DNA of 64,000 nt from Caenimonas sp. SL110 (GTDB taxonomy: Bacteria > Pseudomonadota > Gammaproteobacteria > Burkholderiales > Burkholderiaceae_C): positions 62,001 to 126,000 of the forward strand of contig NZ_JANU01000031.1 of the NCBI RefSeq assembly GCF_001044395.1, in the 5' to 3' direction. Within the stretch, counting starts at the first letter, position 1. Each line of letters opens with the position of its first letter. Position numbers and translations under genes: made by a program. Below, piece by piece: positions 1 through 55,304 of the stretch. Under the pieces are notes generated by a model. That model was not told where the DNA came from and ran no database searches. It saw only the letters and a program-made list of their open reading frames with translations.

Positions 1-381
1 GTCCATCGCTTCGAGCACGGCTTCCCGGGTCACGTCGTCGGTCAGCGGTTTTTCCAGGATTCGCATCACCCTGCCCTGGTTGATGGCGGCGATGGCAACA
101 TCGCGTTCGGCGTAGGCAGTTGCGAGCAAGCGGATGATGTGGCGGTGCTCGCGCTGCACCACACGCAATAGCTTCATGCCGTCGCGCTCGGGCATGCGAA
201 AGTCAGTGACCAGCACTGCAAACTCGCGTTCGCCCGCAGCAAGGATCTCGAGCGCCTCGGTAACCCCCGAGGCCGTCACGACGTCAAATTCGTCTGCGAA
301 CACCCGCGCGAAAATCTTGCGGGTGAATTCCTCATCGTCAACGAAGAGAACGGAAAGTGATTTGTCGGCGGCTACTGGCAT
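1..381 (-). CDS. Response regulator, receiver domain (3' end outside window)
   Basis: The first 127 residues of a CheY-like receiver protein are visible; the C-terminal part lies beyond the left edge. The acidic pair is D15/D16 (VDDEE), the phosphoacceptor is D60 (VTDFRMP), with T89 and K111 (LEKPL) in the expected places. The ATG at 381 lies 13 bases after the stop of the hybrid kinase, so it is probably co-transcribed and is the likely phosphotransfer target of that kinase. An output domain (HD-GYP, DNA-binding or none) cannot be judged from here. Confidence 0.85.
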   Translation of the reverse strand, partial: MPVAADKSLSVLFVDDEEFTRKIFARVFADEFDVVTASGVTEALEILAAGEREFAVLVTDFRMPERDGMKLLRVVQREHRHIIRLLATAYAERDVAIAAINQGRVMRILEKPLTDDVTREAVLEAMD

Positions 382-394
382 GGGCTGCTGGACT

Positions 395-2911
395 CTACCC
401 GATGGCTGCGGCTCCCTGAGCTCGCAGCCACTCACGCAGTGCCGTGTTGCTGGTTTCGGTGAGTTCTCCCAGATGCGTGACCCACAGGTCTTCCGCCGGC
501 CACTGGCCGGTCTCGCGAAGCGCCACGTACAGTTCGCGTGCGTAGCGGTGAAGCGACTTGGCTCCGCCCTCGCCGCTCATGCCGACCAGTGAATGCATGG
601 CATCGAGCGCAGCCTGCATGTCGCGCGCGTCGCTGGCGCGGCGCACCTGGCCCACGAGAGCCATGCTTCGCGGCACGAAGTCATCGACGAGTTCGGCCAG
701 CATGCCCAGCCGGAGGTAGTTCGCAAGACGGCCCTCGTCCAGCAGCACAGGCTCCTGCGCCTGGGCATGGACGACCGGTGCCGCCGAAGCCGTCCGCAAT
801 CCGAGTAGCTGCGCCAGCTTCGACTGCAAGGCTGCCTGATCGACGGGCTTGGTGATGAAGTCGGATATGCCAGCTGCGCTGCCCTCGGCAATGACCTGCG
901 GTCCGGCATAGCCGGTGATGGCAATGATGGGAATGCGCCTTTCGCCCGCAGCGCCGGACCGGATCGCACGGGCGGTTTCCATGCCGCCCATGCGCGGCAT
1001 CTGCAGGTCCAGCAAGACCGCATCGACCGTGCCGCCTTGCGACAGGAGCGCGAGCACTGCTTCGCCGTCGCTGGCTTCAATTACCGTCGCTCCCAGGTGT
1101 CTGAGCGTTCCCGCCACGCTCATGCGGTTGTAGGCGTTGTCGTCCGCCACCAGGATGGTGCGGTCGTGCAGGGAACCAGCCATGCGCTCGGGAGCGGATG
1201 CGCGCTGGGTCACCGCCAGCTGCAAGGCCTCTATGAACGCCACCGGGTCGGCCGGCTTGGCCACAAAACCGTCGAAACCCGCCTTGGCCGTCTTGACCCG
1301 CGCCACGTGCTCTGGTTCTGCCGTGTGGGCGAGCAGGCAGGTGTCGCGGTTCAGAGGAGCGAGCTGGCCACGCACCGATTCGGCAATTTCGTACCCGTCC
1401 ATGCGCGGCATGTTGAGATCCAGCACGACCATGTCGAACTTTGTTTCGCGCAGCGCCTGCAGCGCCTCGATTCCATCGGCGGCTTCCCGCACCGAGCACA
1501 TCAGCGACAGCAGCAGCTGGCGGGTAGAGGCGCGAATGCCGGCGTCGTCATCCACCACCAGAACCAGCTTGTTGGCGAACTCCCGCCGTGCCTGCGCAAA
1601 CACACGCTCGCGCCCGGTTTCGATTTCCTCGCGGCTGACCGGCGGCATCTCCATCACAAAGGAAGTGGTGCCCGGGGCGCAATTGCAGCTGATCTTTCCG
1701 CCGATGGCTTCCACGGCGCGACGGCAGTACGCCAGGCCCAGCCCCGTCCCGCTGGACTTGCCGCTGGTGTTGAACGGCTGGAAAAGTTCGGCAAGCGCTT
1801 CTGCGGGAATGCCCGGACCCGTGTCGGTCACGCAAATGCGTCCCTCATCGACTTCGAGCCTGACGTGCATACCCGGATAAGCCGGCAGATAGTGCAGAGC
1901 ATTCTTGAGCAGGTTGAAGAGCACGAACAGGAATGCAGTCTCGTCGGCGCGAAAGACAAAGTCGCGCTTGACCACGACGCTGACGCTGGAGCGCTGCACT
2001 TCGTCTTCATAGCCGAATTCGGCGACGGCCTTCCTGCACAGTTCTTCGGCCGATGCATAGCTCAGCCGTTCGGTGTTCAGCGCCTTGGCGTTGACTTCGT
2101 CCAGTGTCATCGTGATGACCTGCAGGCCGCGGCGCACGGCGGTCTCGCCCTGCGAGACATGGCGATAGAGCTGCTCGACGCTGTGCGCATCGATGACCTG
2201 CTCTTGCGCCCGGGCGCTGGGCAACGGAAGCGATTGGCGTATCTGCTCCAGGCTGTGGCGGACCTGAGCGAGCGGGTTGCGCATTTCGTGTGCGATGGAT
2301 CCGGCCAGAGACGCGTAGGCCTGCCGAACCCTCTCGGCGGCGCCCTGCTCCAGCGCGAACTTGAAGACGCTGCCACCGATGATGCTGATGAGCAGCAGTG
2401 GCAGGCGCATCACGTAATCCATGGGCACGCGAGGCTCCGGGCTCACCATGACGTAGAGCCCCGCCGCCGCCCCGAAACCTGCCAGCAGCATGACGATGAG
2501 GTTGCGCCAGTCGGTGAGCAAGAGAAGCATGAAGACGGCCATGAACGTGTTGCCCACGGCACCCGGTCCGCCGCCGTTCATCAGCGAGCTGAAGACAAAG
2601 GTCATCGGCAGCGATACCGTCATGACGAAGTACGAAAAATGGAGGTAATACGGCTTGGCCCTGTCAGGCCAGTAGGCGCGCAGCGCCAGCACGGCAAGGA
2701 TGGCGACATCGAACAGCCGCAGCAGGATGTCGTCGTAGGTGGATGGACTGCGCAGGAACCGCAGCATGTACATCGCGGGCAACCCCACGATGCCAAAGAC
2801 GATCATGTAGCGCAGCAACAGCGGACTTGGCTGGTGGTAGGCCCTGTAATAGGAAAAGATCCGGCTGAACCAATGAGTCATGGTGGACTTTGTGACAGTG
2901 GTGTTCTTCAT
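395..2911 (-). CDS. CqsS/LqsS-like hybrid sensor histidine kinase (HK-REC-REC-Hpt)
   Basis: Membrane hybrid kinase of 838 residues. About six hydrophobic segments fill residues 20-190 without a periplasmic domain. Next come the H box IAHEMRNPL (His near 207), N box FNLLKNA, G1 DTGPGIP and G2 GTGLGLAYC. Two receivers follow (VVDDD/LDLNMP, Asp near 495; VADDN/LDLQMP, Asp near 634), then an Hpt domain with MHSLVG (His near 774). By memory of the family, the membrane part and kinase core resemble CqsS, the Vibrio alpha-hydroxyketone autoinducer sensor; the Hpt tail recalls RpfC. The start at 2911 is chosen because it makes an ATGA overlap with the upstream acyltransferase; longer in-frame starts would run into that gene. 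Confidence 0.88.
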   Translation of the reverse strand: MKNTTVTKSTMTHWFSRIFSYYRAYHQPSPLLLRYMIVFGIVGLPAMYMLRFLRSPSTYDDILLRLFDVAILAVLALRAYWPDRAKPYYLHFSYFVMTVSLPMTFVFSSLMNGGGPGAVGNTFMAVFMLLLLTDWRNLIVMLLAGFGAAAGLYVMVSPEPRVPMDYVMRLPLLLISIIGGSVFKFALEQGAAERVRQAYASLAGSIAHEMRNPLAQVRHSLEQIRQSLPLPSARAQEQVIDAHSVEQLYRHVSQGETAVRRGLQVITMTLDEVNAKALNTERLSYASAEELCRKAVAEFGYEDEVQRSSVSVVVKRDFVFRADETAFLFVLFNLLKNALHYLPAYPGMHVRLEVDEGRICVTDTGPGIPAEALAELFQPFNTSGKSSGTGLGLAYCRRAVEAIGGKISCNCAPGTTSFVMEMPPVSREEIETGRERVFAQARREFANKLVLVVDDDAGIRASTRQLLLSLMCSVREAADGIEALQALRETKFDMVVLDLNMPRMDGYEIAESVRGQLAPLNRDTCLLAHTAEPEHVARVKTAKAGFDGFVAKPADPVAFIEALQLAVTQRASAPERMAGSLHDRTILVADDNAYNRMSVAGTLRHLGATVIEASDGEAVLALLSQGGTVDAVLLDLQMPRMGGMETARAIRSGAAGERRIPIIAITGYAGPQVIAEGSAAGISDFITKPVDQAALQSKLAQLLGLRTASAAPVVHAQAQEPVLLDEGRLANYLRLGMLAELVDDFVPRSMALVGQVRRASDARDMQAALDAMHSLVGMSGEGGAKSLHRYARELYVALRETGQWPAEDLWVTHLGELTETSNTALREWLRAQGAAAIG

Positions 2912-3554
2912 TGCGTTGCCATCCCTGCGACGCCGAGCGCAATCGCCATGTCGCGGGCGCCACCGCGAATCAGCGTATAGACCTTTGCGGTACCTGGCAG
3001 TGGTACATCGCGAGCCAGTACGCTGAAACCGAACCGGCGATAAAGACGACTGAGCGAATGCGTGCACGTGGCCCAGAGCCCATCAACACGAGCCTGGGTG
3101 CAGGCGTATTCGAGGGCCAGATTCATGCAGTGACGAAGCGCGTTCACATCACTGCGGTATTCAGGCGCAAGAACCAGCCGGCCTACTTCCCATTCACCTT
3201 TCTGGATCGACGGAGCACTGCCACCGGCCTGCGGCAGCAGCTGCTCCGTCAAGGTCAAACCGTAGCCCAGTGGCACGATCCGAATCGTGCCGAGCCGCTC
3301 ACCATGAAGGTCGAATGCGACCACGATTCCGCACTCGTCTCTTTTTTTTCGAGACACTCGAACAGCGGCCCTGCGGCCGCTCCTGCGCTCTTGTGCACGG
3401 AAAGGTCGATCTCGTCGCGCAAATGCATGACCGAAGCAACCTCATCAGGAGGAACGCGAACCAGTTGAACGGCATCCAGAAAAGACTGGGACCCGAAAGG
3501 CAGTGCGCCGCCGGCGAATGCCATCGGCCCGGATGAGGTGATTTGTAATTGCAT
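2908..3554 (-). CDS. FeeM-like N-acyltransferase, reading frame broken at an A8 tract
   Basis: Two overlapping frames together make one GNAT-fold acyltransferase of about 215 residues, resembling the N-acyl amino acid synthase (FeeM)/autoinducer-synthase superfamily. The N-terminal frame starts at 3554 after a GGAG site and reads to FECLEKK; the C-terminal frame resumes at KKRDECGIVVAF and contains GRLVLAPEYR and the end of the fold. The junction is a run of eight T on the plus strand (3342-3349), i.e. A8 in the mRNA, where a -1 slip or one extra A restores a single frame. It could be a sequencing error, a pseudogene or programmed slippage. Its stop overlaps the kinase start (ATGA), so the two are coupled. 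Substrate is not known. Confidence 0.6.
3342..3349 (-). other. A8 slippery tract inside the acyltransferase gene
   Basis: Eight consecutive T on the plus strand (A8 in the transcript) sit exactly where the two halves of the acyltransferase change frame. In the upstream frame the codons are GAA AAA AAA; moving back one base leads into the downstream frame AAA AGA GAC. This is the type of tract known to allow -1 ribosomal or transcriptional slippage. Confidence 0.6.
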
Positions 3555-3615
3555 GGCTGCGTACTCCACAGGTTTGAATCAATCGTCACATAATCGCCAT
3601 ACCGGCGTAGCGCCA

Positions 3616-3637
3616 CCCCTGTTAGTTCTGACAGGGG
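3616..3637. promoter_or_regulatory. lux-box-like dyad upstream of the acyltransferase
   Basis: CCCCTGT, 8 bases, ACAGGGG: a perfect 7-bp inverted repeat that contains the CTG-N10-CAG core of LuxR-type boxes. It is centred about 72 bases before the acyltransferase start (3554) and lies between that gene and divergent msrB. It could equally be a different regulator's operator or a hairpin; no LuxR gene is in view. Confidence 0.4.
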
Positions 3638-3758
3638 GTCATATACGGCATTTCCCTATAAAGCGGTCCTGCGAGGCATCTCCCGATTCCTCACCAGCAC
3701 GACACAACTTCACGTGTCGGAACTTTAGCACTAACACTAATCATTTTGTGGCGCACCC

Positions 3759-55228: not shown

Positions 55229-55304
55229 TGGTAGGACGTACTGGATTCGAACCAGTGACCAACGGATTAAAAGTCCGCTGCTCTACCAACTGAGCTAACG
55301 TCCC
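55229..55304 (-). tRNA. tRNA-Lys (anticodon TTT)
   Basis: 76 bases including an encoded CCA. The acceptor pair GGGACGT/ACGTCCT, D arm TTAGCTCAGTTGGTAGAGC, anticodon loop CTTTTAA and T arm with GGTTCGAATCC all fold. Anticodon TTT reads Lys codons AAA/AAG. Confidence 0.97.

Follow-up and report, generated by a model that had tools for sequence, protein, structure and literature searches.

A likely second signalling unit in Caenimonas sp. SL110 with a FeeM-like synthase gene predicted to be read by frameshifting

At the beginning of a 64,000-nucleotide (nt) stretch of the 4.72-Mb draft genome of Caenimonas sp. SL110 (G000:C25:62001-126000; this whole stretch is referred to here as the window), the minus strand carries, in order, a gene for a FeeM-like acyltransferase, a gene for an 838-amino-acid (aa) hybrid kinase related to CqsS, and a gene for a 406-aa REC-HisKA-HATPase protein that crosses the window edge. 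The locus raises the question of whether a CqsS-type receptor may respond to the product of an acyltransferase and, since the acyltransferase gene lies in two reading frames, how that gene could be read at all. We consider it likely that the locus encodes a second, non-hydroxyketone signalling unit with a frameshifted synthase, both the ligand and the frameshift being predicted. At the level of sequence and model comparison, the frame offset, the pairing of enzyme and kinase, the fold of the enzyme, the relation of the sensor to CqsS and the differing head-group residues are evident.

A conserved frame offset in the acyltransferase gene

The first-pass annotation had described three minus-strand genes linked by an ATGA overlap and a 13-base gap, and all of this is read directly from the sequence: the acyltransferase stop overlaps the kinase start in ATGA, and 13 bases separate the kinase stop from the next ATG. 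The FeeM similarity claimed for the first gene was also borne out, PF21926 scoring above its cut-off, but the gene is not one open frame, a point on which that annotation was silent. It consists of two open reading frames (ORFs) that meet at a run of eight adenines (A8), the join reading CTC GAA AAA AAA GAG (G-A8-G). The N half (3342..3554, minus strand, frame 0) spans 71 codons, likely from an ATG to GAA AAA AAA, and ends ...LRDEIDLSVHKSAGAAAGPLFECLEKK; beyond the run its frame continues, out of frame with the domain, to a stop at 3255-3257 (minus strand). The FeeM domain (PF21926) resumes in the -1 frame as RDECGIVVAFDLHGERLGTIR..., and this C half (2908..3342, minus strand) has its stop at 2908-2910. 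The putative -1 slip site is the A8 run itself (3342..3349, minus strand; G at 3350, A from 3349 to 3342, G at 3341), where the zero frame reads GAA AAA AAA GAG and the shifted frame AGA GAC.

Relatives were collected by genome searches, in which 11 of 299 genomes of the family and 43 of 60 genomes of the genus were positive, and by a scan of named genomes (47 loci). The genus searches listed 53 acyltransferase matches, of which two were second pieces, giving 51 places, and frames were read only where a locus had been assigned; the weak matches L014 and L016 and loci L102-L106 and L108-L110 stand outside the frame analysis. Deduplication for the tree and the counts was by exact sequence, so near relatives are counted apart. 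The 63 distinct rows comprised 50 with a G-A8/9-G run and 13 without, and since two of the latter are second pieces of broken genes, 11 are one-frame copies. The same -1 offset was present in 49 of the 50 run-bearing sequences, that of the window included. The shifted gene occurs in soil and freshwater bacteria of the genera Ramlibacter, Hydrogenophaga, Caenimonas, Polaromonas and Paraburkholderia. The exception (L098) is without two bases after its A8 run, is in one frame there and has a further break downstream; it is left out of the 49 and, together with L094, whose gene is also broken further, out of the tree. Beyond the Caenimonas genome itself, scans of the order (399 genomes) and of the phylum (398 genomes) gave only weak matches, in 4 and 3 genomes (E values, 1.4e-5 to 2.4e-4; at most 10 candidates were scored per genome), and since these scans missed known Paraburkholderia copies, absence there is not established. 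A plasmid collection contained no acyltransferase at an E value of 1e-5.

Both halves are open in precisely the frames that a -1 shift would join. In all 49 shifted sequences, the N half has no stop in 50 codons of its frame, compared to stops in 25 and 25 sequences in the other two frames, and the -1 frame of the C half is open for 50 codons, compared to stops in 45 and 35. Moreover, third codon positions are most divergent in exactly the predicted frames. A sequencing error or a pseudogene might be suspected from the error-prone nature of homopolymers and from the further gene breaks in two assemblies (L094 and L098); however, this has next to no probability, because the same offset occurs in the assemblies of many species, with third positions highly divergent and with purifying selection on both halves.

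The slippery heptamer lies in the correct phase and is conserved beyond amino-acid need. GAA AAA AAA (E61, K62, K63) is identical in 49 of 49 sequences, and 47 of the 48 with arginine at position 64 encode it by AGA, at a median protein identity of 42%; the other columns conserved in at least 95% of rows, 26 in number, all mix codons, and lysine elsewhere in the C halves is AAA 34 times and AAG 100 times. The 47 named loci (552,627 bases, 66.6% GC) hold 44 runs of at least eight A or T, 39 of which are this join. The context of the run is GAAAAAAAAGAGAC in 42 sequences, GAAAAAAAAGAGAT in five and GAAAAAAAAGGGAT in one (L055); the remaining sequence (L024) has an A9 run with the same offset. 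Since coding homopolymer tracts are classic sites of phase variation, the A8 run might be thought the OFF state of a contingency locus. This is barely credible, as a length of eight is kept in 48 of 49 sequences and the sole A9 leaves the phase unchanged, so that run length restores the frame in none of the 49; the codons around the run are fixed as well, and what puts L098 in one frame is not the length of its run but the absence of two bases behind it.

In a midpoint-rooted tree of 59 rows, a supported branch separated the 48 shifted sequences and three one-frame relatives (L020, L041 and L058) from eight one-frame paralogues, for which a simple reading would be one origin of the shift followed by three later fusions. 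The three one-frame relatives within the clade are without the run, and L058 still spells EKKRD (codons GAA AAG AAA CGA GAC) within ELEKKRDACG, the peptide predicted for the slip. These fusions at the join bear on another explanation, namely, a two-subunit enzyme whose C half is made from an internal start with no frameshifting. Both halves are indeed conserved, and a possible C-frame start at or before the join is present in 12 of 49 sequences; however, a scan of the C frame over at most 300 nt upstream found no ATG, GTG or TTG from the upstream stop to the codon after RD in 37 of 49, and the slip codons are fixed for no amino-acid reason, making such an enzyme very unlikely. A conserved programmed -1 frameshift, by slippage of either the ribosome or RNA polymerase, is the most likely explanation, the slipping being what we infer from the pattern of conservation.

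The one-frame paralogous acyltransferases each have their own CqsS-like kinase (L090, L091 with two copies, L093, L095, L096 and L097), and some genomes, such as that of Ramlibacter sp. Leaf400 (L067 and L090), possess both acyltransferase types.

The enzyme, its partner sensor and a separate CqsA unit

The C half alone matched PF21926 with 32.1 bits (cut-off, 27; E value, 1.2e-7). A profile of the family matched the acyl-homoserine lactone (AHL) synthase TofI (3p2f; E value, 8.6e-6); the match begins seven positions upstream of the join and lies mostly in the C half. For the fold, the one-frame relative L058 was modelled (mean predicted local distance difference test [pLDDT], 90), and nearly the whole chain aligned with FeeM (Z, 14.8 over 171 residues; TMq, 0.62), TofI (Z, 14.9) and LasI (Z, 14.7); in the alignments used for structure, N and C halves were each represented by 24 of 38 sequences, together with nine one-frame proteins. 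In the L058 model, the EKKRD join is part of a helix (residues 57-69) ahead of the central sheet, and because of this position the unslipped product would lose most of the domain. The enzyme probably makes a fatty signal molecule.

The kinase (395..2911, minus strand), whose start forms the ATGA overlap, has a six-helix membrane sensor followed by HisKA (weak; E value, 0.0015), HATPase, two REC domains and Hpt. Its membrane domain and kinase core had both been said to resemble CqsS closely. For the sensor domain this held, since it matched CqsS of Vibrio campbellii (24% identity over 164 aligned positions; E value, 1e-7), a protein in an unannotated record that we named CqsS because the neighbouring ORF is a CqsA homologue. 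For the kinase core it did not: the best named NCBIfam family among the 25 matches listed was LuxN, at 228.8 bits far under the cut-off of 1550, and no CqsS family was among them. A model of the sensor domain (built with 31 of 46 sensor stretches plus that of the window) has six membrane-length helices (pLDDT, 92), and no solved structure matched the sensor in sequence up to an E value of 1.

The head-group choice of Vibrio cholerae CqsS is set by W104 and S107, according to a passage of PMC3376566; LqsS keeps the S but not the W, so that W is not strictly defining (likewise from a part of PMC3376566). In our own alignment these residues correspond to W100 and S103 of V. campbellii. Among the 49 kinases that partner the acyltransferase, the S position was N in 43, D in 5 and a gap in 1 (the short kinase L054), and the W position was A in 24, S in 10, F in 6, another residue in 8 and a gap in 1, but never W. 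Because the W..S pair is lacking, the kinase probably senses an acyl signal other than a hydroxyketone.

The pairing of acyltransferase and kinase that had been proposed from this locus was found to be conserved. In 57 of 57 loci, several of which represent one genome from two sources, the enzyme match is followed downstream within 0.9 kb, on its own strand, by a CqsS-like sensor domain, which excludes chance as the cause of the arrangement. Within the genus, a sensor was present within 1.5 kb at all 50 testable places, G303 lying outside the pairing sample, which accordingly covers 50 of the 51 places. In their distances, enzyme and sensor also co-vary more closely (0.674) than enzyme and kinase core (0.471; partial value, 0.556; 0 of 500 permutations; 32 loci).

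The same genome encodes a CqsA-type unit (G000:C23:117159-120893; L017:9160-12894) made up of a hydroxyketone synthase, a CqsS-like kinase and a receiver protein. Its CqsA (C23:119619-120755) is 46% identical to Vibrio CqsA and scores 564.7 bits with NF005526, the model for alpha-hydroxyketone synthases (cut-off, 428). The first-pass annotation had allowed that a cqsA homologue elsewhere in the genome might supply the signal; such a homologue does exist, but it stands beside its own CqsS-like kinase, which keeps W and S at the head-group columns. Because the kinase of CqsA keeps the W..S pair and the kinase of the window is without both residues, the proposal of a separate acyl signal stands, and more firmly than before. 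The presence of CqsA in the genome, together with the homology of the sensor to CqsS, might instead suggest that the kinase is a second hydroxyketone receptor for the CqsA product and that the acyltransferase product serves an unrelated purpose (lipid or protein modification). We regard this as improbable, since CqsA already has a W..S kinase, the kinase here has neither residue, and the acyltransferase-sensor pairing is near universal, with both partners co-varying.

On plasmid 2 of Paraburkholderia caribensis (L101:4846-8487), the gene immediately after that of a KAS III-like enzyme encodes a related hybrid kinase (34.6% identity), which has S and E at the head-group columns. This is a possible further match of synthase and receptor, and the overall pattern is consistent with a single family of receptors that has been paired with different acyl signals.

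Routes of slipping and points that weigh against recoding

The slip site has the form of an X_XXY_YYZ heptamer, A_AAA_AAA, followed by G. A_AAA_AAA is among the motifs chosen for more than 0.10% frameshifting without stimulators in Escherichia coli, as stated in a passage of PMC4066793. The genome has both tRNA-Lys(UUU) (55229..55304, minus strand), the expected reader of the AAA codons of the slip site, and tRNA-Lys(CUU) (at L115), ARAGORN having been applied to 30 of 43 tRNA places; slipping by the UUU tRNA would be better served by AAA AAA than by AAA AAG.

Several observations weigh against a signalling unit with a recoded synthase. With regard to the slip, stimulators are common but not obligatory in programmed -1 frameshift genes, and a search of 60 nt downstream and 25 nt upstream, by simple folding with pseudoknots outside it, found none: folding of the downstream 60 nt did not surpass that of shuffled sequences (mean z, -0.12; z below -2 in 2 of 49), and upstream Shine-Dalgarno (SD)-like tetramers were not enriched (7 of 49 versus 14 of 49 in a control stretch). 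Rfam gave no match over the locus. Efficiency may be low, because in E. coli A_AAA_AAA is reported, in a part of PMC5009743, to be much less shift-prone than A_AAA_AAG. With regard to the enzyme, the N half by itself had no match in Pfam or NCBIfam, and many ordinary GNAT enzymes tie with FeeM in fold, a plain acetyltransferase ranking first. With regard to the pairing, the enzyme accompanies 50 of 54 strong sensor places in the genus, leaving four without it: one has the kinase and the start of a receiver gene with no enzyme found (G314:C9, L142), two belong to another operon type (G300:C3, L141; G308:C13, L143), and one is at a contig end (G322:C257). Furthermore, the permutation test of co-variation does not fully remove shared ancestry. 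Finally, the gap between enzyme and kinase exceeds 60 nt in 10 of 46 pairs and 17 of 46 overlap (by 1 or 4 nt), so that translational coupling is not general.

Because no stem-loop or SD stimulator was seen, transcriptional slippage is a strong rival for the mechanism, although not for the existence of the shift. The same recoded gene would be read after RNA polymerase had added an A in the A8 run, and we give this sub-case of the proposed recoding a substantial, if less than even, chance. The lack of a structural or SD stimulator is as expected for slippage, and productive slippage on eight A's has been suggested for insertion sequence (IS) elements of Deinococcus radiodurans and Nostoc (in a passage of PMC1088944). 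On the other hand, selection against slippage appears at a length of nine in a large share of genomes (also in a part of PMC1088944), whereas the run here is eight in 48 of 49, and the presence of both lysine tRNAs, with AAA AAA expected to be read by the UUU tRNA alone, would fit ribosomal slipping.

The other operon type (L141:2787-6199; L143:2943-6288) combines the same sensor domain with a short kinase, a receiver-like protein and a further protein that carries a GerE (LuxR-type) domain, the last tested only in L141.

A proposed signalling scheme, its neighbours and its meaning

The occurrence and efficiency of the shift, the making and the sensing of a signal, and the order of the relay belong to a scheme that we infer from these comparisons. 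The GNAT-fold acyltransferase, of the FeeM/autoinducer-synthase type, would make an acylated signal; the CqsS-like kinase beside it would detect this signal with its six-helix sensor, and a phosphorelay from histidine kinase to REC, REC and Hpt would lead to the product of the gene next door. That gene (G000:C25:61161-62381, minus strand; 1..381 in the window, with 840 bases beyond its edge) had been taken for a receiver protein; its domains are those of a REC-kinase (REC-HisKA-HATPase). Production of full-length synthase would depend on a -1 slip of ribosomes or RNA polymerase at A AAA AAA, giving ...E-K-K-R-D..., and ribosomes that do not slip would meet a stop 6 to 87 codons on (counted from GAA), leaving a truncated N half. 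Where the synthase stop overlaps the kinase start, as it does in the window, slipping ribosomes could couple translation into the receptor gene.

Other genes recur near the unit. A haem-oxygenase-like iron enzyme lies between or before the acyltransferase and kinase genes in 14 of 57 loci (L019, L020, L062-L066, L068 and L099; upstream of the acyltransferase in L053, L054, L056, L059 and L060), L020 and L068 being from the same genome and PF14518 having been tested in L019 (L019:10207-10881); it may tailor the signal. A fatty acid desaturase-like gene lies convergent to the Caenimonas unit, outside the window (L003:10201-11244; G000:C25:60200-61243). Such a gene closes the unit in 4 of 57 loci (L003, L018, L057 and L061) and also adjoins the acyltransferase-less sensor kinase of L143. 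Likewise outside the window, L003:1548-6860 encodes a protein of 1770 aa that combines protein kinase, AAA, GAF and histidine kinase ATPase domains.

The putative unit shares with the CqsA/CqsS and Lqs/Jqs alpha-hydroxyketone systems a CqsS-homologous membrane sensor, a hybrid kinase and a synthase gene beside the receptor gene. It differs in that the enzyme beside the sensor is a GNAT-fold acyltransferase and not the pyridoxal phosphate (PLP)-dependent CqsA/LqsA, CqsA being on contig C23 with another kinase, in the replacement of W..S, and in the two REC domains and Hpt. The C-half score, the whole-length fold of the L058 model and the TofI profile match resemble the FeeM family (PF21926) and LuxI-type AHL synthases, from which the gene is set apart by a conserved -1 frame shift inside the domain and by a fixed partner kinase. 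In Vibrio, LuxM, an acyl-homoserine lactone synthase, is paired with the hybrid kinase LuxN. That arrangement is alike in placing an acyl-signal synthase next to a hybrid kinase, and the best named family of the kinase core is LuxN; however, the membrane domain is CqsS-like, and the core is far from the LuxN cut-off. As in -1 frameshifting at the A-rich heptamers of dnaX and IS elements, A_AAA_AAA is in the right phase and conserved, with both frames under selection, but no stimulator was found, and the gene is presumed to encode a signal synthase, whose long form would need the shift. The msi172/msi171 protein of Mesorhizobium loti, FseA, likewise involves recoding within a quorum-sensing circuit, although it is an excision factor of a mobile element read by a +1 shift, unlike the presumed signal synthase itself and the -1 shift proposed here. 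The quorum-linked +1 frameshift of msi172/msi171 is described for an integrative and conjugative element in a passage of PMC5009743.

To our knowledge, few ordinary chromosomal genes of bacteria show conserved recoding, and a literature search, with most subscription papers outside its coverage, found no report of a recoded autoinducer or signal synthase. Annotation software would probably take recoded genes for pseudogenes or fragments, and a system of this kind is therefore easily overlooked. If the proposed reading is correct, the locus would represent a new synthase-receptor pair, and the 3 one-frame versus 48 shifted rows on one side of the tree would offer a natural comparison for why recoding has been kept. 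We further suggest, tentatively, that recoding acts as a control point: the frequency of slipping at A8 would set the amount of synthase and, via the ATGA overlap, of receptor, perhaps regulated by the state of translation or transcription, within a modular set of CqsS-type receptors matched with CqsA, FeeM-like and, in P. caribensis, KAS III-like synthases. Likewise, the contrast with the true CqsA unit in the same genome would provide a means to learn how CqsS-type receptors change ligand.

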